Notes under the pieces: model-generated
Database searches by the model: none
What the model was told of the DNA's origin: nothing
The model's input: only the letters and a program-made list of their open reading frames with translations
In this document: positions 2,927 to 33,088 of the stretch, piece after piece
How positions within the stretch are numbered: the stretch's first letter is position 1
Layout: every line of letters starts with the position of its first letter
Position numbers and translations under genes: made by a program
Source of the DNA: a virus
Virus record (IMG/VR): IMGVR_UViG_3300023284_001128
Span: 1-35,724 of that record
Strand: one strand, 5' to 3'
Length of the DNA stretch: 35,724 bases

Positions 2927-4555
2927 CTAGAGCCTCTGAGCTTCGGCTACATTCTTTGCGGCCTGGCTCAAGGATTCTGCATTCTGCTGGAGCTGCTGCC
3001 GCTGCTGAGCCTCAGCTCGGCTAGCACGCAACTTATCAACCTCGTCCTGAGATAAGAGTATGGCTTGAGGCATACTTCGCGCCTCCGCCAGAGTGTCGAC
3101 GGCTGCGTCAATGTCGATCTTATCCATGACCTCAGGTCGAACATTAGCAACTGGAGCCAGTTCTTGAAAGAATAAAGAGATAGCATCCGCCAGCAAAGAC
3201 TTCTGTGCACGGTGAGCAGCCGAAGTATAATCCACAACAACATCAATACCTTCCAAGATCGCCGGCCTTTCGGGAAATCTGTCAGTCTTGGCCGCAAGAA
3301 TTTCAAAAGTTCTTGTAATAGCGCGGCCGAGGAATTCGGCTTGGAGGCGCGCGAGGATCGGTGCAATAAGACGCAAGGATTCATTACGTAATTCCTGGAA
3401 CTCTAAAGCTGTTTGGCGCTCCTTCTTAAGTTGCGTGCGGAACAAATCAACAAACAGGCAACGCCTGATACTGTCCCGCTTTTGTTCAAATTTCTCAAAT
3501 GCGACCTCAATCCTTTTATTGGGATTCTGAAGCCATTTAATTTCATCAGACCCGGGCTCAACCAAAGTTACACCGCTTGGGTCTAAATGCAAGGGGAGAA
3601 CATACCCATCAGTCGGAAGAAGCATTGGCGGATCAACTTCTTTCTCCATGGACCGGAGACCCACACGCTCCATGCGCTGCAACATCCGAATGTCGGGGAG
3701 GCAGGTGTCTACCGGACCACGGCCGTAAACTTCACCAGTCAAAACCGTCCATCTGGCGACATGATAGGGAAACGTGTCGCTGCCGGACTCGCCCAGTTTG
3801 GTAAAGGATTCCTTAAGATACCAAACCTCGGCCCAGTCTTTGTTCATGAGAAATCTCAAAGTCGAGGGAATCCTTTTGATCATCAAGGGAATATCGTCCC
3901 GGGGGAATACGGCGTGCACCACCTCAAACTTGTCGTCTGGCTGCTTGGCATTGTCAGAACCATCTAGCACAACATCAGGCCATGTCTGCATGACCTGGCG
4001 CTTCGTGAGTGGGAAAACACGAAATAGAGCGTCAATCTCACCATCGGCATTTTCTTCGAAGAAACACGTAGCCAACGGGTAAGCTCGGAAACGAACACGT
4101 TTTTTACGGGGATTCCACCGACTCTCCATGACGGCATTGCCGAAAGCCATGGTATCCGGGTAAACCTCAGAAAGCATATTCGACCAGCCGGACTTCTTGG
4201 AGGCGAATTCATCGTAAAGTTCCAACTCCACCGTCTCGATCCACTCCTTGACAGCGTTGTTCTGCTTGATGGTCTTGTCCCGGGTCTGAACCTCAAGCTT
4301 GAACCACTTTTCTGCGGGGTTGGTGAGAAACGAATGCATTCCGCCAGCGGAATCGAACAGTGCCTCACGCGCAGTGCTGTCGTAAATGTCCAGCGTTCGC
4401 TCCTCACCAGGACTCCTCGTGGTCTGGAAGTCAGTCGTCATCGGCCGGACCAGATCCACAATATCTTGCCACTGTGCATCGAAATTCCCGCGTGCGTGCC
4501 TCAAAGCCTCCACCCGGGTGTCGATCTTCTTAATGAAAGGGTCTCTGATAGCCAT
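2927..4555 (-). CDS. Portal (head-to-tail connecting) protein
   Basis: 542 residues, the usual length of the podovirus head-tail connector family. It forms the dodecameric ring at one capsid vertex, through which TerL pumps DNA and to which the tail attaches. Recognisable pieces are the N-terminal helix with WQDIVDLVRP (about residues 29-38), DIYDSTAREALFDSAGGMHSFLTNP (split over residues 55-81) and FRTQLKKERQTALEFQELRNE late in the protein. The C-terminus is Gln/Ala-rich. It starts 1 base inside the small upstream gene's stop and is followed by the Bbp19-like gene. No disruption is seen. Confidence 0.93.
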   Translation of the reverse strand: MAIRDPFIKKIDTRVEALRHARGNFDAQWQDIVDLVRPMTTDFQTTRSPGEERTLDIYDSTAREALFDSAGGMHSFLTNPAEKWFKLEVQTRDKTIKQNNAVKEWIETVELELYDEFASKKSGWSNMLSEVYPDTMAFGNAVMESRWNPRKKRVRFRAYPLATCFFEENADGEIDALFRVFPLTKRQVMQTWPDVVLDGSDNAKQPDDKFEVVHAVFPRDDIPLMIKRIPSTLRFLMNKDWAEVWYLKESFTKLGESGSDTFPYHVARWTVLTGEVYGRGPVDTCLPDIRMLQRMERVGLRSMEKEVDPPMLLPTDGYVLPLHLDPSGVTLVEPGSDEIKWLQNPNKRIEVAFEKFEQKRDSIRRCLFVDLFRTQLKKERQTALEFQELRNESLRLIAPILARLQAEFLGRAITRTFEILAAKTDRFPERPAILEGIDVVVDYTSAAHRAQKSLLADAISLFFQELAPVANVRPEVMDKIDIDAAVDTLAEARSMPQAILLSQDEVDKLRASRAEAQQRQQLQQNAESLSQAAKNVAEAQRL

Positions 4556-4788
4556 TATTCACCTGATAGGATTGAATTAGTGCCCAAGGAGCCCTCTTCC
4601 TGATCGATCCCAAGGATCGTGGCGCGCCTTCCCTTCTTCTTGCGCTCGGCTTGGAGGCGTTGTAAGGCCTCGGCGTCGGCGAGTCGGTCCTCGTCTTGTG
4701 GCGCGAGCGGCTTGACGGCTTTAGGTTTCGGTGGGGATTTCGACCCCCCTTGCTGCTTCCGTCGACTGAGATCTCCTATTAGATTCAT
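4555..4788 (-). CDS. Conserved small protein upstream of portal
   Basis: 77 residues from the ATG at 4788. A Lys/Pro-rich middle (SKSPPKPKAVKPLAP) is followed by a charged helix and the segment KKKGRRATILG near residues 54-64. Many podoviruses carry a short protein with a 'GR-A-TIL' box just before the portal, and I place this gene with them; the role is not known. The stop codon overlaps the first base of the portal ATG, and the 5' end overlaps the preceding gene by 68 bases in another frame. Confidence 0.6.
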   Translation of the reverse strand: MNLIGDLSRRKQQGGSKSPPKPKAVKPLAPQDEDRLADAEALQRLQAERKKKGRRATILGIDQEEGSLGTNSILSGE

Positions 4789-5149
4789 GAAGAGCACATC
4801 TTCTCAGTAACGCAACCATTCTGTCAAACTTATATACCCTCGGTGGGCGCCCCTTGTAGCGCCACGCGATCCAGGGGAGTGGGTATGGGAAGAGCTTGAG
4901 CGCTTCCTTCAAGTCCCCACAGGCGAAGTAGATAAACCAAGTGTCCCGCTCCTTGGGATCCTTCAGGGTGAACTGTGGACCCTGTTCTGTGATCGCTAGC
5001 AGGCTTGCGGCAGTGGGATATGCAAAAATCACGTATTCCGGGGAGATATGGACATACCCGTAGAACATGTGCATATCAACCACGTCTTGCCACACTTCAG
5101 CGCCATCAGCGCCATCAAAATAACTCAATGCTTTTAAATAGGGACTCAT
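4721..5149 (-). CDS. Hypothetical protein between TerL and portal
   Basis: 142 residues from the ATG at 5149, which shares ATGA with the TerL stop, so translation is probably coupled. The sequence is rich in aromatics: MHMFYGYVHISPEYVIFAYP near residues 27-46 and DTWFIYFACGDLKEAL near residues 68-83. It then turns into a basic tail. A mixed alpha/beta domain of acetyltransferase size is possible, but I see no acetyl-CoA motif and do not assign it. Position suggests a structural or morphogenesis role. Confidence 0.62.
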   Translation of the reverse strand: MSPYLKALSYFDGADGAEVWQDVVDMHMFYGYVHISPEYVIFAYPTAASLLAITEQGPQFTLKDPKERDTWFIYFACGDLKEALKLFPYPLPWIAWRYKGRPPRVYKFDRMVALLRRCALHESNRRSQSTEAARGVEIPTET

Positions 5150-6480
5150 CGCCAAGTGCTCTTGATCAGGGGCGCCCCCGTTTTGTAATAATCGGTCATT
5201 GCGGTGTTGATCCCCCGCTTGCCAGCCATTGCGAAGTTCCCAAAGGCGTCGGCGCCATGCGAGGCCCAGTCATGAACGGGCTCCTTCTGCCAGTCCCCGG
5301 TCTTCTTGTTCTTCTCCTTGTGGTAAGCCCGCATGCAATCAATCCCCAACTTGCACTTGAGCTCGTCAAAGATCGTGACAGGGAGGACACTTCGGACATT
5401 CTCAATCCTGTCCTCCAAGGTATGCCTCTTGACCAGTCGGAAGTTAATACCCGACTGCCGAGCGAGGTCCTGGCGGGTCTTGTTCTTCTGCATCCACTCC
5501 TTGACGGCCAAATCCCAGGGACCGAAATGCTTCCCGTAACGATACCCCTTACTCTCGAGGACACCCTTGTAATGTGGGAACCCCTCTCCTGAATTGGAAT
5601 AATAGTCAACCATCCGATGCTCCCGCTCAGTTGTTTGGAAAAACCATATAGCTGTCGTATCCCGGCCAATATCCCAAGAGGTATGGACGGGGAGAATCTG
5701 GTCGATTGGGATCCGGGTAATGCGCCCTTCATCCCGGGCCTTGCGCATCTCATGTTTGTAAAACGCTCCTTCGCCTGAAGCGTCCGGATCATTATAAAAC
5801 TCCTGGTCGGCCCGCTCCGGCGACATACCGTCCCTGATAGCCTCCTCGATATCCGCGGTAGACATGACTGGCGTCCCGTCATCATGCTTGGTGCCATGGT
5901 CTCCAGCGACAAGAATCTCGCCATACCAGTTGTCAGCCGAGATGGAGGTATTCAAAAGGGTCCAGGCGTGATTACGGCTCCGAACGGTGTAAAGAAACAT
6001 GGCCCACCCCCTGTTATTCAAGAGCATCGGCGTCAGATAATCCCACACAGTCTTGTAACTAGCGTGCACAGAATACTCGGACATGATAATCCCAACAGGG
6101 TTTGGGCCCACCAAGCGATCGATATCATCCGCGCCCATAAGCCGATAGATCGACCCATTAACGAATTCAATCTTCATTTCCGTATTGTGCACCTTACGAA
6201 TCATCTGGGGATCGAAGTGATCCGTAAACTTGCGGCCGTCGTCAGTCAGTCCGTCCCAGACAATCTCGCGTGCCTGTTTAAAGTAGGGGAGCATGTGCCA
6301 ATATGTCCCAACCCTGTGCATCGCCTTTACGGCTGCAATGTTGATGGCGGTAATGTCCTTGCCAGCCCGGCGATGCCACGCTACGGCCGCTCGAAGCTTC
6401 TCCTTTTCCTGGAGCATGTAACGCCACAGTGGAATTTGATATTGCCTCGGCTTCCACTGGTAAGGTAGATTGATCGTCAT
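5146..6480 (-). CDS. terL: Terminase large subunit (TerL)
   Basis: 444 residues from the ATG at 6480. The packaging motor's ATPase has a Walker A variant HRRAGKD at 36-42 and a hydrophobic Walker B strand IIMSEYS at 131-137. The RNase H-like nuclease shows SWDIGRD with D270, and a C-terminal DWASHGADA with D404 and D411. These are the standard terminase signatures. A GTG at 6564 would add 28 residues, but those overlap the divergent glycosyltransferase gene and look non-native. No strong ribosome site precedes 6480. It is followed directly by small head genes and the portal. Confidence 0.95.
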   Translation of the reverse strand: MTINLPYQWKPRQYQIPLWRYMLQEKEKLRAAVAWHRRAGKDITAINIAAVKAMHRVGTYWHMLPYFKQAREIVWDGLTDDGRKFTDHFDPQMIRKVHNTEMKIEFVNGSIYRLMGADDIDRLVGPNPVGIIMSEYSVHASYKTVWDYLTPMLLNNRGWAMFLYTVRSRNHAWTLLNTSISADNWYGEILVAGDHGTKHDDGTPVMSTADIEEAIRDGMSPERADQEFYNDPDASGEGAFYKHEMRKARDEGRITRIPIDQILPVHTSWDIGRDTTAIWFFQTTEREHRMVDYYSNSGEGFPHYKGVLESKGYRYGKHFGPWDLAVKEWMQKNKTRQDLARQSGINFRLVKRHTLEDRIENVRSVLPVTIFDELKCKLGIDCMRAYHKEKNKKTGDWQKEPVHDWASHGADAFGNFAMAGKRGINTAMTDYYKTGAPLIKSTWR

Positions 6481-7359
6481 ATGGAAGACATTAAACCAAA
6501 GACCCCACCATCGGTCGAGGCTAAAAGCCACAAAAGAGTGGCCATCTGCGTCTACAAAGACCACATCGAACCTGAAACTGAATTCCTGCTGGACCGCCTA
6601 GTGCAGAAGAAATGGACCGTCCTCAGGCGAGAAGGATCAGCCAACATCGACACCTCGAGAAGCATGTTCGCTGGAGAGGCCTTATCTCTTGGAGCAGAAT
6701 GGATCCTCTGGATTGATTCCGACATGGTGATTTTGCCGGAACAGGTTGAGGAGCTCGAGCGAATTGCGTATGGGTCGGGAGGAAAGGTGACTGTCTTGTC
6801 GGCGTTGGCGAGTCGGAGGGGAGGCGACACTCCCGCAAATTCTATCTTCGATCCTTCACCCAGGTATGTCGGAGACGTGGTCAACGTCACCACGGGGTGC
6901 GGCGCTGCCTGTCTACTCACTCACCGATCGGTCTACGATGATCTGATTGCCGCGTTCCGAATGCATGAGGTGCTAAGCATGAACCACGTCTTCTATCCCT
7001 GGTTCGAAAAGATCAAGTTCTGGTTTCACGCGGGAGAGTATATTTGCCTGGAGGAGGAAATCGATGGGCCCGAGCGGCCGCCACATGCCAAACTCTTCTG
7101 GGCCTCGGAGGATCAGAGCTTCGCGATCCGAGCCAAGCTCTGCGGACATCCAGTATGGGTTCATACGGGTGTCCAGATTGGCCACAAGGTGAAGGAAGTT
7201 CAGTGGCCGGATTGGCGGAAAGCTGATCTGAAATATAACCCGCGCAAGGGTGAATTGCTGAAGATCCCCTACGGGCCTAAACCGTCACCTCCGAAGCCAC
7301 CGGCAGAAGTCGTCCCACCAACACGCAAGCAGAACCACAAGAAAGCAAAAAAGAAGTAG
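6481..7359 (+). CDS. GT-A family glycosyltransferase
   Basis: 292 residues. The N-terminal Rossmann-like part runs to ILWIDSDM, where D79-S-D81 is the metal-binding DxD of GT-A enzymes. TGCGAACLLTHRSVYDDL follows near 138-155, then a second acidic site SED at 209-211 and histidines H228 and H235. These fit an inverting or retaining sugar transferase that uses a nucleotide sugar. The C-terminus is a Pro/Lys-rich tail. AAGGTAG about 9 bases before the ATG is a ribosome site lying inside the terL start region. It is the only plus-strand gene in the left block. It may modify host surface glycans or virion protein; the acceptor is unknown. Confidence 0.85.
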   Translation: MEDIKPKTPPSVEAKSHKRVAICVYKDHIEPETEFLLDRLVQKKWTVLRREGSANIDTSRSMFAGEALSLGAEWILWIDSDMVILPEQVEELERIAYGSGGKVTVLSALASRRGGDTPANSIFDPSPRYVGDVVNVTTGCGAACLLTHRSVYDDLIAAFRMHEVLSMNHVFYPWFEKIKFWFHAGEYICLEEEIDGPERPPHAKLFWASEDQSFAIRAKLCGHPVWVHTGVQIGHKVKEVQWPDWRKADLKYNPRKGELLKIPYGPKPSPPKPPAEVVPPTRKQNHKKAKKK

Positions 7360-8514: not shown

Positions 8515-8590
8515 TGGTAACGGGGGTGGGACTCGAACCCACGACCTTCAGCTCATGAAGCTGCTTAGCTACCAACTGCTACACCCCGTA
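8515..8590 (-). tRNA. tRNA-Met (anticodon CAT)
   Basis: A cloverleaf can be drawn by hand on the minus strand. The acceptor is 8584-8590 with 8519-8525 (positions 2-7 paired; position 1-72 is a T-T mismatch). The D-arm is TAGC/GCTA with a GG loop. The anticodon loop is TTCATGA, the T-arm is GTGGG-TTCGAGT-CCCAC, the discriminator is A, and CCA is encoded at 8515-8517. U8 is present. The anticodon stem top pair (27-43) is G-A. The three consecutive G-C pairs of initiator tRNA are absent, so it is best read as elongator Met; an Ile2 (lysidine) role cannot be excluded. It is embedded between two same-strand genes. Confidence 0.93.
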
Positions 8591-11632: not shown

Positions 11633-11919
11633 AATGGGTTCCCGAGCCAATCGCCAACAGTGCCCCCAGTCCCCGGCTTGTCAGGCTGATCAGGCGAAGA
11701 CGGTTTGTCCAGTAATTCATCAGAGGCCTTGATGGTCTGAACAATCAGATCCGTAAAAACTAACCCGGCATCGGTGCCCAGCGCCGCGGTGATGTTTTCG
11801 AAGGCCACTAACGCTGCATCAACTTCGGCGCGCTTGAGCGGTGGCAGCTCTCGATAGGCACCCCAGGTCTCTGCCGGAATCTTTTGAGCAAGCTCCTTCA
11901 TGATCTCGGAGGGGGTCAT
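11629..11919 (-). CDS. Helical hypothetical protein, 96 residues
   Basis: It starts MTPSEIMKELAQKIPAETW and has a helical body with VDAALVAFENITAALG and LVFTDLIVQTIKASDELL. The end is Pro/Asp/Gly-rich. It is a four-helix-like small protein without a known motif. It is ATGA-coupled to the 99-residue gene before it and to the Trp-rich gene after it. Confidence 0.6.
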   Translation of the reverse strand: MTPSEIMKELAQKIPAETWGAYRELPPLKRAEVDAALVAFENITAALGTDAGLVFTDLIVQTIKASDELLDKPSSPDQPDKPGTGGTVGDWLGNPL

Positions 11920-12215
11920 ACTGACACCCTCATCGCCTGAATGTAAGAAACGGGTGTGTCCGGGTCAGTTCTAATCTCATCCAGCCGTTCCATAGCGAGA
12001 CCGGCGTTAGTCCAAACTGAATCAGCCAGCCATCGAGTGCCGGTGTATAAATGGATGATGTAGACCATGAGTTGTGAGGTTGGGAGATCGGGGTTAGACG
12101 CTATCCCGCTGTCAGGCCCCTCTAGAATCAGATCCTCCATTTCCTGGCACTTCTTCGCCGTCCGCTCGATGGTGTCATCGATGTGCTTCTGCGTTACTGG
12201 GTCTATCTGGTTCAT
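11916..12215 (-). CDS. Helical hypothetical protein, 99 residues
   Basis: It begins MNQIDPVTQKHIDDTIERTA, with several helices (QLMVYIIHLYTGTRWLADSV) and acidic loops. It is the first protein gene downstream of the 482-base structured non-coding region, and its ATG is preceded by an AT-rich patch rather than a clear ribosome site. No family is recognised. It may be a late accessory protein. Confidence 0.6.
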   Translation of the reverse strand: MNQIDPVTQKHIDDTIERTAKKCQEMEDLILEGPDSGIASNPDLPTSQLMVYIIHLYTGTRWLADSVWTNAGLAMERLDEIRTDPDTPVSYIQAMRVSV

Positions 12216-12697
12216 TATGTCATATTAAATCGGCACGGGGGATGGCCCGGGGAGTCTGACCCCAGCTTCAAGGTTTTCGGCTTTACGCTCCGATACCCGC
12301 CACTCCCCGCGGTAAAGTGTGCCCGGACAATGCTCCGCCTCTATCGGGTGCGGAGTCGCGAGATGCTCCCAAGACTCCCGGGACTTTGCTGTGCGAGCTC
12401 AGGTGCTCCCTTTCAGGGCCCGTCCCCACTTTAGCAGGACACACACAAAATTTCGGGAAGGGAGGTTCGCACTCCCACGGATGTCATTTCACCCTGCCGC
12501 CAAAGCGCTTGAGCTTCCGGCGGACGGCTCTCATGCCGCTGCTCCCACTGCGGGACGTCATAATTGACTTTCAGGCGGGCCTATTCCGGACCCGTCACCC
12601 CGTCTCCGGTTCCCCTCTGCAGAGGGGTATCGCCATCCGGATGGCGTGCCGTTTCCATCGCACCCGGTCGGGTGCCGCACTGGATACCGGCAAATTG
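12216..12697 (-). ncRNA. Candidate large structured non-coding RNA
   Basis: No convincing protein gene covers these 482 bases on the late strand, and local composition is clearly more GC-rich than the flanks. Inverted repeats are dense. Perfect palindromes lie at 12631-12646 and 12612-12627. Other hairpins are at 12660-12675, 12497-12523, 12460-12476, 12333-12355, 12281-12317 and 12249-12263. The arms 12352-12357 and 12373-12378 give an alternative pairing to 12333-12355. A 7-bp long-range helix (12231-12237 with 12645-12651) would close nearly the whole domain. Phages carry large ornate RNAs of this size (ROOL, GOLLD and others), but I cannot match this one to a class. Orientation with the operon is inferred. 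Confidence 0.5.
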
Positions 12698-12949
12698 TTA
12701 CTCCGGCGCTGCAGTCCCTTCAAGCTTGAATAACCGGGTTTCCAAATTATTCACATGTGCCACCAGAGTTGCATTCTCCTGGGTGAGGGAGCGGTTGGTC
12801 TCCTCAATAACATCCAACTCGTTCTGCAACCCGCGGATCGTGCCCGACTGGCGATCATTCCATTTTTTCAGGTCTCGGCCCTGGTTTATCAATGTGAGTT
12901 GGAGGTTGGTGTGTGCCTCCATGCATTTCATCAGATTCTTGACATTCAT
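12698..12949 (-). CDS. Coiled-coil hypothetical protein, 83 residues
   Basis: It starts MNVKNLMKCMEAHTNLQLTL. The rest is a near-continuous amphipathic helix with heptad spacing (LQNELDVIEETNRSLTQENA and VAHVNNLETRLFKLEG), so it is probably an elongated oligomer. The ATG overlaps the preceding stop by ATGA. It is immediately upstream of the structured non-coding region. No specific family is recognised. Confidence 0.65.
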   Translation of the reverse strand: MNVKNLMKCMEAHTNLQLTLINQGRDLKKWNDRQSGTIRGLQNELDVIEETNRSLTQENATLVAHVNNLETRLFKLEGTAAPE

Positions 12950-13484: not shown

Positions 13485-13675
13485 GATACCCTATAGCCTT
13501 TGAACCCGCAGTTACGACAAATAACATTCCTTTGGGGTGGATCGCTGAGTAAAACCGAATCATCAGCATCTTCTAATTCGTGCCCACACTCGGAACAAAG
13601 AATTCCATTGCGTGACTCTCGTTTTTTGGAGCGAAACTTCCGTTTTTCTCTATTGTATTCTGTTAATGTCCTCAT
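13481..13675 (-). CDS. Zinc-ribbon protein, first gene of the minus-strand operon
   Basis: 64 residues. A basic N-terminus (RTLTEYNREKRKFRSKKRE) is followed by CSEC at 27-30 and CRNC at 53-56, forming a four-Cys zinc ribbon. Such small ribbons bind nucleic acid or RNA polymerase subunits. A promoter-like pair lies directly upstream, with a leader of only a few bases and no clear ribosome site. Its position as the first gene suggests an early transcription-related role; this is inference. Confidence 0.65.
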   Translation of the reverse strand: MRTLTEYNREKRKFRSKKRESRNGILCSECGHELEDADDSVLLSDPPQRNVICRNCGFKGYRVS

Positions 13676-14088
13676 TCCGGGGTAATATAGCAGCCAGTTC
13701 AGCTAAATCAACCAGGGATTGCTGGGTAAAGGGGGTAGTGGTTGTGGGGAAAAATTTTCATAAATCCCTGATATATCGGAGTTTAGCGAACTTCGGTTTA
13801 GTTCCCTCATGGCCCTCCTAAAGCCACTCTGCATGGGTGGGGGGTTAATCACTGGGGGTTTGTCTTGGTCATGCAACCATTACAGGTCATCACGCCACTC
13901 TCACACCCTGATAGTGCAACACTGATCACTCCAATTGCATGAGTCGAGTGGTCACTCTTGATTGACAAGACATACAGGCTCGTAGACTCGCATCTCCACC
14001 CCTCTCAAGAGCCGACCGATGGCCTACACTCTGATAGCCGACCCACACCACAATTGACAACACAAACAACCCATGGTTGAATAAAGAC
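13676..14088. other. Divergent non-coding control region
   Basis: 413 bases separate the minus-strand operon from the plus-strand genes, with no convincing gene. It holds the promoter at 13684-13711, an AT-containing stretch at 13749-13780, a G-rich run near 13830-13860 and several CACTC motifs. Two TTGACA boxes lie at 13972-13977 and 14054-14059. The second is 17 bases before a TTGAAT that could serve as a weak -10, but this would start transcription inside or at the following start codon. Confidence 0.5.
13684..13711 (-). promoter_or_regulatory. Sigma70-like promoter for the minus-strand unit
   Basis: On the minus strand TTGATT (13706-13711) and TATATT (13684-13689) are separated by 16 bases. 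The -10 matches TATAAT at five of six positions. Transcription would begin about base 13677, only a few bases before the ATG at 13675, giving an almost leaderless message. Confidence 0.5.
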
Positions 14089-14303: not shown

Positions 14304-14512
14304 CTCACACTCAGTCACACAACCCCCACTCAGAGCACCCTTCACAATCAGGATCACACCCACCACACTCGCATATCTCTTCTTTGGATGAGTCTATTGT
14401 CTCTCTCTCTGGATTGGGTATTGAGAGCGGCGCCGGGAAGGATTGTGGGACATTTTGTCTCATATGGGTGCTGATGGTCAATTAGTTAGTGTCGGGGTGT
14501 GCGTTGGAGTGC

Positions 14513-14725
14513 TCACCCCTCCACAATCGTTAACGCACTCTCTCCCTCATCAACACATATCATGCCACCCGACTTGAAGGCTTCTCGCATAACATTGCGA
14601 ATGCCATCATCGGCTTCAGGCATGAATTCTTCAATCCACGCTTCGAAATACCCGTCTGGTGTCATGTCGCTCATATTCTCCGCCTCGCGCGCTTCCGCGC
14701 TATATCTCCTTAAGCCGAAACTCAT
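14513..14725 (-). CDS. Small acidic hypothetical protein, 70 residues
   Basis: From the ATG at 14725: MSFGLRRYSAEAREAENMSD, then GYFEAWIEEFMPEADDGIRN and a SGGMICVDEGE end. AGAGG directly abuts the ATG, so an internal ATG (MSDMTPDG, about 17 residues later) may be used instead. It is a lone minus-strand gene within the control region. No family is recognised. Confidence 0.45.
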   Translation of the reverse strand: MSFGLRRYSAEAREAENMSDMTPDGYFEAWIEEFMPEADDGIRNVMREAFKSGGMICVDEGESALTIVEG

Positions 14726-19082: not shown

Positions 19083-19261
19083 TAAAGACAACTATATTTT
19101 GCGATGCGTGTAATGAGTTAATGCCTAAAGCATTCCTGATTGCAGGACGCTATAAAATGAAAAAATGTGAATTCACGGTTCTGACTCCAGACAAGAAGGA
19201 TATATGTTTTGATTGTTTTTCAAGGGCCTGGGAATCTGAAAGTGGGTGTCCTGAAACATGA
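19079..19261 (+). CDS. Small zinc-finger protein, 60 residues
   Basis: From the ATG at 19079: MIKTTIFCDACNELMPKAFL, then KKCEFTVLTPDKKDICFDCF. CDAC at 8-11 and CFDC later make a four-Cys zinc finger. It overlaps the exonuclease stop by four bases and the helicase-loader-like start by four bases. It probably binds nucleic acid or a partner; no family is recognised. Confidence 0.62.
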   Translation: MIKTTIFCDACNELMPKAFLIAGRYKMKKCEFTVLTPDKKDICFDCFSRAWESESGCPET

Positions 19262-19911
19262 TCATCCTAGAATGCACCCATTGCCGGCGCAACGTTGAGT
19301 TCAAGGAACTTGACGACGCGCACGGCGAGGTGATCACTCAGATTGCCAAAAACATCATCTGCACCAAGTGTGGCGACTTACTGCCGCATGCAGATAACCT
19401 TGACCGGCTATTTAAGACCGAGCCGATTCACCCTGAATGGACTCACTACGAAAATGAACTGGTCGCACAATCAATCGAAAACGAATCCCTTTGCGTTCTC
19501 TTCTATTCCGACGATCCCAAGGATCATGTTGAAGCTTGCCGCTATATCGTGGCGTCTTACGAAGGGCCTGGTAACGTCATTCTCGGCTCTCATGCTGATA
19601 TTAGCGATCGCCTCAACATACTCGCGTCTCATGAGGAGGACCTTATGGGATTTCGCAAAAAGCTTCTTGAGGCTGCGGTTTTGTGCATTACTGGCTTTGG
19701 GGAGGGACGCATGGGTGAGAGCGGAGATCCTCCATCCACGAAACACTTTGCTGATCTCCTCGAATGCCGCCTGGCAACAGCTGATACAACGGACGCAGTT
19801 TACACCGCCATCGGAACCTCGCACTCTTTCCCGGGGCTGCAGACAAGGTGTAACGAATTCGGAACTAAGACCCTCGGCCTTATCAAAAATCACTACACGC
19901 TAATCAAATGA
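19258..19911 (+). CDS. DnaC-like helicase loader with degenerate ATPase
   Basis: 217 residues. An N-terminal zinc ribbon has CTHC at 6-9 and CTKC at 35-38. The rest lines up in order with DnaC-type AAA+ loaders: NVILGSHADISDRLN resembles DnaC's SVLIITVADIMSAM region, LLEAAVLCITGFGEG fits the Walker B strand, and FADLLECRLATADTTDAVYT the helix before sensor 1. The Walker A place (82-90, FYSDDPKDH) has no GxxxxGK[ST], and Walker B lacks the DD/DE pair. It may bind the host helicase without ATP hydrolysis. No helicase gene is seen nearby. The fold assignment is by eye. Confidence 0.5.
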   Translation: MIILECTHCRRNVEFKELDDAHGEVITQIAKNIICTKCGDLLPHADNLDRLFKTEPIHPEWTHYENELVAQSIENESLCVLFYSDDPKDHVEACRYIVASYEGPGNVILGSHADISDRLNILASHEEDLMGFRKKLLEAAVLCITGFGEGRMGESGDPPSTKHFADLLECRLATADTTDAVYTAIGTSHSFPGLQTRCNEFGTKTLGLIKNHYTLIK

Positions 19912-25593: not shown

Positions 25594-26016
25594 CTATCCA
25601 CCTCCTTTCTTCACGCGAGCGTGCAGTTCAGAGGTAACGCCGCGGGCCTGGGCCGACTTCGAGATAACCTTTTTGACTTCCTTGGCCGCTTCCCCCGCCA
25701 GCTCCACTCCCCCAATTACCGCCTCCAACACTTGCTCCTGGCTGGATAATTGTGCTCGAGCTTTTCTGTTCCTGATCTGTGCGTATAGTCCAAGTCCCCC
25801 GGCCAGGATCGTAGACACTAGACCGGCGAATGGAAAAGGTGCTAGACTCACTAACGCCGTAGCTGCTTGGATTGAGGGGTTGGCCACTATGTTCGTTGCC
25901 ACCAACCCCGTTGTGGGGTTTACACCCACCTTTTGAGTTGTCAGGAGATTGTCAGCAGTGTCGCATCCGGTGCAAAGGAATGCCAGGACCATAGTCAGGG
26001 ATAAGAAATATTTCAT
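25594..26016 (-). CDS. Putative lipoprotein with second hydrophobic span
   Basis: 140 residues. The signal MKYFLSLTMVLAFLCTGC has C18 as a lipid-acceptor candidate, although the -3 residue is Cys rather than Leu. A second hydrophobic, Gly/Ala-rich span lies near residues 55-80 (PFPFAGLVSTILAGGLGLYA), then a basic helix EVKKVISKSAQARG. Together with the holin-like gene upstream it suggests a lysis group. No endolysin is visible in the window. Confidence 0.62.
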   Translation of the reverse strand: MKYFLSLTMVLAFLCTGCDTADNLLTTQKVGVNPTTGLVATNIVANPSIQAATALVSLAPFPFAGLVSTILAGGLGLYAQIRNRKARAQLSSQEQVLEAVIGGVELAGEAAKEVKKVISKSAQARGVTSELHARVKKGGG

Positions 26017-30421: not shown

Positions 30422-33088
30422 TTACCTGGCTCCCGGCCCAAACAGGGCACCGGTGGTCTTGAGCCTCAATCGTTTGATCCGTCTTTCGCGCTCTCTGACT
30501 GATCCGGGGAAAATCATATCTTGCAAGGCGTCGAGGATCAAGTAGTTTACAAGGTCCCCCGCAATGGGCACATTGGCACCTGGATAGTTCTTTCTTGCCG
30601 TCCTGAAGATCTGACCCCCCGCTTTCGCTGGGTTACCGTCTACCATGTGACTCATGGATGTAAAAGCTCCATTGATCAAATCCCCCGCAGGACCCCCTAG
30701 AAGCCTCGTAGCGGCCGCATTGAAGCTTTGGTCGTATTCATCAAAGATTATGTCCCCAACGATGCCTACGATGCCACTCATGAGCAATACGCGCCTGAAT
30801 AGCTTCATCTGTTTCTCTGGGTCCTCTTGGTTAATGTCTATGAGCCCTTGGCCCCTGACAAGACTCTTGAGTTGCATGACAGTGAATGATCCTATTATCA
30901 AAGAAGCAACAGTTCCGATAGTCCACAAAGGACTGTCTGTCATTATCCCGCTTTTGAGAGCCTGGAACCTCTGCATACCCTTGTTTGCTGAGGCCGGAGC
31001 GTGGTGAAGGGCACGGTTGGCGAAGCGGTTCATGTAGGCAATCGGGAATGATCGGAATTGAGTGAGGATTTTGAGTGCCACATTGGGGTAAGTCCCCTCC
31101 TGTGTCCCCTTTGTTCCGCCTATTCCACCGGACATTTGCCGTTGGGTGGTCAAATCCGGGGTAACAACGATCGAATCAGTTCTGTCTGTGAGATAAATTC
31201 CGTAGGAATCGGTCAGGTCAGTCCGCGCCTTGCGGATATTCCTGGCATTAACCGGTTTGCCTTGGGATCGCAGGACAGAGTGGAATGCGTCATCTCCTAA
31301 TGCCTGAACTTCAGATGGGAAGAGATGTTCTTCCCCGTTCTTACCCTTGATTATTTTGGCACGGCGAACCACATCCCACTCTGCGGCTTCAATGCCTGCC
31401 TGCTTCAAATCTTTTTGCAACGGCTCAGGTAATTTGTCGAGATTGTTCTTTGTATTTCGGCCCACCAGGAAAGCAAGGTGGGATGTGATATTCGCTTTAT
31501 TATCATCATTCACCGCGCTCATCCCGATCCACTTAAAAAACTTATTGGTCCAACGCCGAGTTCGAGCGTCCAATGCACCGGGCTCAAACCGGTCAACAGT
31601 GCGGTCTGTAAACCCCTCCAAGGCATACAATTGATCCCGCATCATTTCCTTATTCCCTTCTGAGGCCCTGAGCACAGACCCTGTAAAGGATTCCATGGAC
31701 CTCATCCCTGAAGCAACTAACCCCCTGAACCCTGTCATGCGGTCCATGACAAACGAAGTGATGGCCACACCCCCGAGCTTAGAAGAACGAAGGACAAATG
31801 TGCCGAATGCCAACACGGCCTTGGTGCGTTCGAGGCCGTGAGCAGCGCCAAAGCCGGTAACTTTCAGCCAGGAATCCTGCCAAGCAGCATCCGATTGTTT
31901 AGGGTCAAGACTCTTTATGTGATCCGCTGAATCATCCAAGTCTTTTACGAATTGCCGCGCATCATTCAAGAGCCCGCGCATAGTTAATTCTGGATTGGGG
32001 CCAAACTTCTTCATAACACCAATTTTCTTTGCACGACCGATCACCTCTTGTTTGATTGCATTTGAAAACGTCTTTGAAGATCCGAATTCCTTGTGATAGG
32101 CCCACCAGTTTTCCGTGTCCTTAAATATGAGGTGACGCTGTTCGGAGACTTGCTTGGCCAAAGAGCTGGTTACCGGACGGACATCGACATCGGCAAAGGC
32201 GCCATCATCTGTCAATCCATCCTCTGCAGTCTTTCCATCATAACGATTCATCATGTCACGATGAATTCCTTCCAGCGTCACATCAATCCGCTCATCAGAC
32301 ATCCCCCTGAACATAGCTTCATGATCCAGGCGATTGTAAATCGCGTTTTTCCACACGCCATAAGATTTCTTCCTGCTAGACCTGGAACCAGGTCGTGCTC
32401 CAGGTTCGAGTCCGGCATTCCTAATGCGCGTCCAGTCATGCTCTTGAGTCGCAACGTAGTTTTTCTTCAGCTGAATAAGCGCCCCTTGATCATTCAACGC
32501 AAGAACCTGTTGCGTTCTATTTTCAATGATGATATCTGCGATGGCGCGTGCTCTGGGGTTGTTAGTAGGACGGCTGTCAAGCTCTGACCTGATGTCCTTA
32601 GAATGAGTATCCTTATCGAAATCCTTCCAAAGCGAACCGTCGGGGTAATCGGGATGCGCTCGCATCTTTTGGACTACGCCACCGAAATCCTTCCTCGTCT
32701 GTTCGAGGACCATATTCCCTACAGAATGAATTGCACTCCTGACATCACGTCGGAATACCTCCACAATAGCCTTAAGTCCATCCCCAGCCAACCCGCCTGC
32801 TTTTACGAAATTCTTAATCGTTCCCAGCAATTCAGAGCGCTTCTCTATTGTGAGCAATGCTTGGTGCTCTGTTTTTGCTTTCAGAATCTGCTGATCTACC
32901 TCCATCTCCTTGGCAGCTTGTCGGAGTGCGGATGTCTTGGAAACATTCTTTCCGAGTCGCATGAGCTGTTCTGCGCGGACTTTAACACCGTCAATAATCT
33001 CGATGATGTCTTTGTCATCTAGCCGCAATTCTTCCAGGGATGCCTTGAAGGCGTCCAGACATTCTACTGATGTTTTGAATGTGGCCAT
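30422..33088 (-). CDS. Internal virion (DNA ejection) protein, large
   Basis: 888 residues. It is mostly charged helices. Near the C-terminus two hydrophobic stretches (TIGTVASLIIGSFTVMQL near residue 720 and VLLMSGIVGIVGDIIF near residue 765) could insert into membrane. This resembles the large internal proteins of T7-type phages (gp15/gp16), which form the ejection conduit. No lysozyme or transglycosylase motif was seen here. It is followed by the tail fibre gene and preceded by another internal protein. Confidence 0.7.
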   Translation of the reverse strand: MATFKTSVECLDAFKASLEELRLDDKDIIEIIDGVKVRAEQLMRLGKNVSKTSALRQAAKEMEVDQQILKAKTEHQALLTIEKRSELLGTIKNFVKAGGLAGDGLKAIVEVFRRDVRSAIHSVGNMVLEQTRKDFGGVVQKMRAHPDYPDGSLWKDFDKDTHSKDIRSELDSRPTNNPRARAIADIIIENRTQQVLALNDQGALIQLKKNYVATQEHDWTRIRNAGLEPGARPGSRSSRKKSYGVWKNAIYNRLDHEAMFRGMSDERIDVTLEGIHRDMMNRYDGKTAEDGLTDDGAFADVDVRPVTSSLAKQVSEQRHLIFKDTENWWAYHKEFGSSKTFSNAIKQEVIGRAKKIGVMKKFGPNPELTMRGLLNDARQFVKDLDDSADHIKSLDPKQSDAAWQDSWLKVTGFGAAHGLERTKAVLAFGTFVLRSSKLGGVAITSFVMDRMTGFRGLVASGMRSMESFTGSVLRASEGNKEMMRDQLYALEGFTDRTVDRFEPGALDARTRRWTNKFFKWIGMSAVNDDNKANITSHLAFLVGRNTKNNLDKLPEPLQKDLKQAGIEAAEWDVVRRAKIIKGKNGEEHLFPSEVQALGDDAFHSVLRSQGKPVNARNIRKARTDLTDSYGIYLTDRTDSIVVTPDLTTQRQMSGGIGGTKGTQEGTYPNVALKILTQFRSFPIAYMNRFANRALHHAPASANKGMQRFQALKSGIMTDSPLWTIGTVASLIIGSFTVMQLKSLVRGQGLIDINQEDPEKQMKLFRRVLLMSGIVGIVGDIIFDEYDQSFNAAATRLLGGPAGDLINGAFTSMSHMVDGNPAKAGGQIFRTARKNYPGANVPIAGDLVNYLILDALQDMIFPGSVRERERRIKRLRLKTTGALFGPGAR

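Follow-up and report, generated by a model that had tools for sequence, protein, structure and literature searches.

A candidate large structured RNA on the late strand of an orphan podovirus-like phage

Large structured RNAs encoded by phages are, to our knowledge, only a handful, and we know of none with an established function. ROOL, GOLLD and OLE form RNA-only complexes, and the phi29-type pRNA is a phage-encoded structured RNA that self-associates. ROOL (rumen-originating, ornate, large) has been described as an RNA gene of phages and prophages whose protein partner is not known and which often lies near tRNA genes (PMC12286853). The GOLLD representative studied by cryo-EM is placed downstream of a Met-tRNA, and many GOLLDs are longer than 800 nt (PMC12286853). 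Moreover, OLE and GOLLD both present symmetric kissing loops whose cores are palindromic, and dimerization of OLE relies on a loop that has a palindromic tetranucleotide (PMC12286853). Here, a gene-free segment of a viral genome record is described whose predicted fold on the late strand suggests a further RNA of this kind.

On its minus strand, the window analyzed, that is, the whole viral record of 35,724 bases, encodes a terminase large subunit at 5146-6564, a portal protein at 2927-4555 and an internal virion protein at 30422-33088; the phage was therefore considered podovirus-like and tailed. The late genes lie on the minus strand, running leftward from about 13.6 kb and also from 35.7 to 25.6 kb, and the plus-strand genes, DNA-metabolism genes among them, occupy about 14-25 kb. 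At 4-99, on the minus strand, the record matched the MW202510 major capsid protein at its N-terminus. It thus appears to be cut within the capsid gene, which would be expected if the genome is circularly permuted. The closest terminase relatives, found in IMG/VR, were about 51% identical and the closest portal relatives 37-39%, and the ORFs tested at 6.6-26 kb had no relative among the viral loci fetched via the searches. Consequently, this phage is an orphan at about genus level or above, a status that limits all inference on the element at 12216-12697.

Other features of the genome were recorded in passing. The codon score was positive for an ORF of 273 aa (6538-7359, plus strand) that lies inside the leftward late cluster and is probably a gene running against the direction of its neighbors. 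A single tRNA-Met gene lies on the late strand (Table 1), and ARAGORN revealed none in the ten sequences of related phages analyzed. On the plus strand, two 160-nt windows, 14481-14640 and 19281-19440, presented folding z scores of -5.7 and -7.0, respectively, relative to 25 shuffles; the second is within the ORF 19258-19911, which encodes zinc-finger-like CxxC pairs. The sigma-70-like matches in the region around the one listed in Table 1 were at chance level in number.

The segment of interest, of 482 nt, exactly fills the space between two ORFs of the minus strand, 12698-12949 and 11916-12215. The frames of the gap, its internal ORFs and the flanking ORFs were scored with a codon model for which the long genes of the phage served as the training set. 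Both flanking ORFs were positive (0.20 and 0.18 bits per codon), and negative values were obtained for all six frames of the gap and for every internal ORF except one of 25 codons. The ORFs inside the gap had neither a PHROG nor a tblastn relative, and their sole Pfam match was weak, below the cutoff and supported by residues placed outside the gap. The GC content of 0.614 was the highest among the 73 non-overlapping windows of 482 nt into which the record was divided. Similarly, in a crude gene call of the terminase-side late cluster on the minus strand, this gap had the highest GC and was the longest bar a stretch of 592 bp (13497-14088) corresponding to the site where the two transcription directions diverge. 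The gap noted in the preliminary description is therefore real, gene-free and GC-rich. Within it, no site resembling a terminator was found and, since T-runs are absent after the palindromes, the interpretation of the latter as a terminator cluster was rejected. In fact, neither a promoter nor a terminator of its own was detected for the element. The features of the locus and of the predicted fold are compiled in Table 1.

Table 1. Coordinates of the candidate RNA element, its predicted substructures and neighboring features in the window
Feature	Positions	Strand	Description	Basis
tRNA-Met (CAT)	8515-8590	late strand	sole tRNA gene	
Downstream gene	11916-12215	minus	99 aa, orphan	
GC-rich structured gene-free segment, candidate non-coding RNA	12216-12697	minus		codon score, GC, MFE, z, confident pairs
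A/T-rich linker	12216-12234	minus	last helix to downstream start codon	sequence
3' three-way junction	12235-12310	minus	stem 12310-12299/12246-12235	predicted fold, domain z
Central multi-branched domain	12311-12599	minus	closed by 12599-12573/12340-12311	pair probabilities 0.95-0.99
Long rod	12348-12478	minus	12478-12441 with 12394-12348, about 34 pairs, small interruptions	pair probabilities 0.80-1.00, isolated fold
Hairpin P3	12612-12627	minus	16-bp perfect palindrome CCCCTCTGCAGAGGGG, RNA loop UGCA	palindrome and fold
Hairpin P2	12631-12646	minus	16-bp perfect palindrome CGCCATCCGGATGGCG, RNA loop CCGG	palindrome and fold
5' hairpin P1	12647-12692	minus	nested stems 12684-12681/12657-12654 and 12675-12670/12665-12660	pair probabilities 0.90-0.99, isolated fold
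Upstream gene	12698-12949	minus	83 aa, coiled-coil-like, orphan	
Sigma-70-like promoter match, weak	13684-13711	minus	upstream of leftward gene cluster	

The stability and the definition of the fold were evaluated on both strands. On the minus strand, the minimum free energy (MFE) of the gap was -212.9 kcal/mol, the lowest of the 73 windows of 482 nt (the next one reached -175.4), and only 2 of 200 shuffles with controlled composition were as low. The corresponding z scores ranged from -2.7 to -3.7 across the shuffle sets, the value of -3.7 being also the lowest of the 73. Even more marked was the definition of the structure, with 116 base pairs predicted at a probability above 0.9, against 45±24 in the shuffles, none of which (0/200) reached that number, and an ensemble diversity of 42.9, against 117±31, with a single shuffle in 200 as low. 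For both measures, the gap ranked first among the 73 minus-strand windows. In contrast, the plus strand of the same segment presented 46 such pairs and a diversity of 124, which made it indistinguishable from shuffled sequences.

Taken separately, each domain was more stable than shuffles on the minus strand, and the central and 3' domains were clearly weaker on the plus strand, with z scores of -3.7 (minus) and -2.7 (plus) for the 5' part, -2.8 and -1.4 for the central domain, and -2.15 and -0.65 for the 3' domain, in addition to -2.5 for the rod; these values are mildly favored, because the domain limits were taken from the fold itself, a bias of which the test on the whole gap is free. Several sub-windows cut arbitrarily, such as 12216-12480, gave z scores near 0. 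Well-defined folds are also found in coding DNA, as in the plus-strand window at 25712, with 111 confident pairs. A 683-nt gap of the related phage MW202879 gave 144 confident pairs, yet it holds un-annotated ORFs and was rejected as a comparable element. Two further signals were discarded. When the segment was folded with 300-nt flanks, 23 pairs crossed the borders of the gap, only the fourth lowest number of 72 windows, so that an exceptional coincidence of the fold borders with the gap could not be claimed; likewise, the raw MFE difference between the strands (-16.6 kcal/mol) was not exceptional among the windows.

Taken together, the strand-specific stability and definition indicate the late-strand RNA as the selected object, for which the evidence is moderate to good, and what is best supported is the presence, in the late-strand transcript, of a large, defined, non-coding RNA fold. 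A long non-coding segment with a well-defined and strand-specific fold is what was found here, as would be expected of a large ornate phage RNA. The proposal of a large structured late-strand RNA made in the preliminary description was thereby supported by the fold, by the lack of coding signal and by the lack of an Rfam match, but not by two of the arguments originally offered for it, the number of hairpins and a helix closing the domain, which proved to be mostly at chance level. Regarding the first, three hairpins with stems of at least 6 bp were observed against 1.07 expected, and 95 of 1000 shuffles had as many, so that ordinary inverted repeats do not exceed chance in number. Similarly, distant exact complementary 7-mers amounted to 12, against 9.7 in the shuffles, 313 of which (in 1000) had as many. 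The 7-bp helix proposed to close the domain (12231-12237 with 12645-12651) does exist as a pairing, but belongs to this chance-level class and is outcompeted by local hairpins in the ensemble. On the other hand, the claim of two 16-base palindromes was exact: both are perfect and adjacent, the 35.7 kb of the record hold only one other palindrome of at least 14 bp, and among 1000 dinucleotide-shuffled versions of the segment none carried two such palindromes. An apparent internal duplication of a sub-domain (12399-12427 versus 12571-12599) was rejected, since 351 of 2000 shuffles aligned equally well.

Three domains make up the predicted fold, namely hairpins on the 5' side, a multi-branched core that includes a long rod, and a three-way junction on the 3' side. 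As P2 and P3 are palindromic, their RNA loops are both self-complementary. The closing stem of the core comprises 18 pairs in three runs, and its interior holds, besides the rod, five short hairpins (12568-12557, 12555-12543, 12539-12524, 12523-12497 and 12494-12479), whereas the 3' junction carries the hairpins 12298-12271 and 12265-12247. The stop codon of the upstream gene lies a few bases ahead of the first helix, and 19 nt separate the end of the last helix from the downstream start codon, which means that the structured part fills the gap. In addition, a hairpin loop of the 3' part, GUAAAG (12286-12281), is complementary to CUUUAC (12316-12311) in the core closing stem, a complementarity that might correspond to a pseudoknot or a conformational switch.

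The search for relatives covered known families as well as large sequence collections. The scan of the whole record with Rfam models (cmscan) at the gathering threshold returned no match for the element, and that of 12150-12760, for which the filters were permissive and E values up to 10 were accepted, returned chance hits only, none of them credible. This agrees with the preliminary description, in which no class could be assigned, and lends no covariance-model support to membership in ROOL, GOLLD or the packaging RNAs that had been mentioned there as examples. No group I or group II intron model matched at E<=10, and the segment sits between two complete ORFs, so that an intron was rejected. 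No relative of the element was found among 50,697 phage and 72,556 plasmid records searched at the nucleotide level, and the flanking and neighboring proteins, used as queries, retrieved no IMG/VR contig. Contigs fetched by means of the portal and terminase, as well as about 20 complete or near-complete genomes of portal or terminase relatives, had no match to the element by nucleotide comparison or by single-sequence covariance models built for its three sub-domains. When IMG/VR and 84,980 prokaryote genomes (GTDB) were scanned with DNA patterns, only chance matches or none were obtained. In MW202510, the nearest annotated phage, the gap 39125-39644 was considered as a counterpart and rejected, as it had no significant nucleotide match and no sign of a similar element; only 20 bases of the segment were matched, elsewhere in that genome. 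Having no homologue in these collections, the element cannot be called a family or a conserved RNA.

During this survey, long ORF-free stretches were observed close to the terminase gene of two relatives. In IMGVR_UViG_3300046642_000365, the stretch 4564-5314 (751 nt, A/T-rich, GC 0.33) is placed about 850 bp upstream of that gene and holds two pairs of direct repeats (61-68 nt), arranged so as to face each other as inverted repeats of 58-72 nt, with a folding z of -13. In IMGVR_UViG_3300006919_000010, the stretch 1836-2585 (750 nt) lies about 640 bp upstream and presents, besides a tandem repeat of 14 nt, a hairpin-like unit of 38 nt that occurs twice, with a fold z of -6.6 and no Rfam match.

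The explanation favored here, to which a probability of about one half is given on the strength of single-sequence statistics, is that of an orphan large structured phage RNA that would be co-transcribed late, released and active in trans. According to this explanation, the minus strand of 12216-12697 would encode a non-coding, structured RNA about 465 nt long, transcribed within the leftward late transcript and, as it has no detected promoter or terminator of its own, made together with the late mRNA. Once folded into its three predicted domains, the RNA would most likely be released, or protected, through cleavage of its short unstructured flanking linkers by host RNases, and might then act in trans late in infection as a stable scaffold or decoy. 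Release and action in trans are preferred on account of the size of the element and its organization in several domains. More speculatively, the palindromic hairpins could pair copies of the RNA much as symmetric kissing loops do in OLE, ROOL and GOLLD, though tetraloops such as CCGG and UGCA are short for self-pairing of this type. The stronger version, in which the element would define a previously undescribed class of large phage RNAs, with no relationship to ROOL or GOLLD, and self-assemble via its tandem palindromic 5' hairpins, is regarded as tentative and rather unlikely.

The same structure could be real and nevertheless act in cis, as an element of the late mRNA involved in RNase III-type processing, stabilization, antitermination or translation control. 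The segment is placed near the start of the leftward cluster, between co-directional genes and with no terminator or promoter of its own, and its rod of about 34 bp is a typical RNase III substrate. However, none of the Rfam cis-regulatory families matches the segment, and the phage cis elements known to us are far smaller than nearly 470 nt in three domains; a role in cis is held to be unlikely, though it is one of the main rivals, along with a DNA-level signal and a GC-rich remnant.

A signal at the level of DNA, namely a replication origin, a packaging site or an operator with protein-binding palindromes, would account for the two adjacent perfect palindromes and for the 5' part folding nearly equally on both strands (z of -3.7 and -2.7), and would be in line with the stretches rich in repeats and free of ORFs that lie a short way upstream of the terminase gene in two distant relatives. 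Those stretches, however, are built of repeats and unrelated in sequence to the segment, which has neither iterons nor long direct repeats and is GC-rich instead of A/T-rich. Moreover, the two palindromes differ in sequence, so that one protein would probably not bind both, and structure in the central and 3' domains is found chiefly on the minus strand, which leaves a DNA signal as a quite unlikely explanation.

It is also conceivable that the segment has no RNA function and is a GC-rich decayed or foreign remnant, whose fold would be driven by composition and whose palindromes were kept or arose otherwise. The failure to find a homologue in the collections searched and the shuffle-level counts of hairpins and long-range pairings are in line with such an origin. 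Nonetheless, the shuffles in which composition was controlled were still exceeded, both in MFE (2/200) and in confident pairs (0/200), and small phage genomes rarely keep long idle sequence, making a remnant very doubtful. Finally, an unrecognized protein-coding gene, for which the plus-strand ORF 12317-12733 (138 aa) spans much of the segment, is highly improbable given its negative codon score, its lack of Pfam, PHROG or tblastn relatives and its antisense orientation to the neighboring genes.

If the favored explanation of a large phage RNA holds, the occurrence of an independent large RNA in a short podovirus-like genome of 36 kb would suggest that phages have invented such molecules repeatedly, and that these RNAs escape homology-based searches because each of them is an orphan. 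It would also provide a small and tractable genome in which the function of large phage RNAs could be tested. The element would be striking if confirmed, the present basis being the folding statistics of one sequence.

Compared with the systems described to date, the candidate can be placed beside ROOL, with which it would share the condition of a large structured RNA gene carried by phages or prophages and devoid of a known protein partner; it belongs to a viral record encoding terminase, portal and internal virion proteins, and ROOL is of the same order of size. The candidate differs in that it belongs to no known sequence family and matches none of the Rfam models for RNAs of this type, ROOL included, up to E 10 under permissive filters. 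Its genome carries one tRNA gene, a tRNA-Met at a distance of 3.6 kb. GOLLD is likewise a large phage or prophage RNA, and the GOLLD studied by cryo-EM has a Met-tRNA upstream, while the present phage carries a tRNA-Met, but here the tRNA lies downstream of the RNA at that distance, there is no Rfam match, and the gap between the coding ORFs, of 482 nt, is below the length of many GOLLDs. OLE, another large ornate RNA, offers a loose analogy between its palindromic dimer loop and the palindromic loops of the candidate, but it occurs mainly in extremophilic bacteria, not in phages, and its Rfam model does not match. The phi29-type pRNA is much shorter than the candidate, which gave no match to the corresponding covariance model. 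By the covariance models, the element is a member of neither ROOL nor GOLLD; it resembles both in kind, as a candidate large RNA gene of a tailed phage that also carries a tRNA gene.
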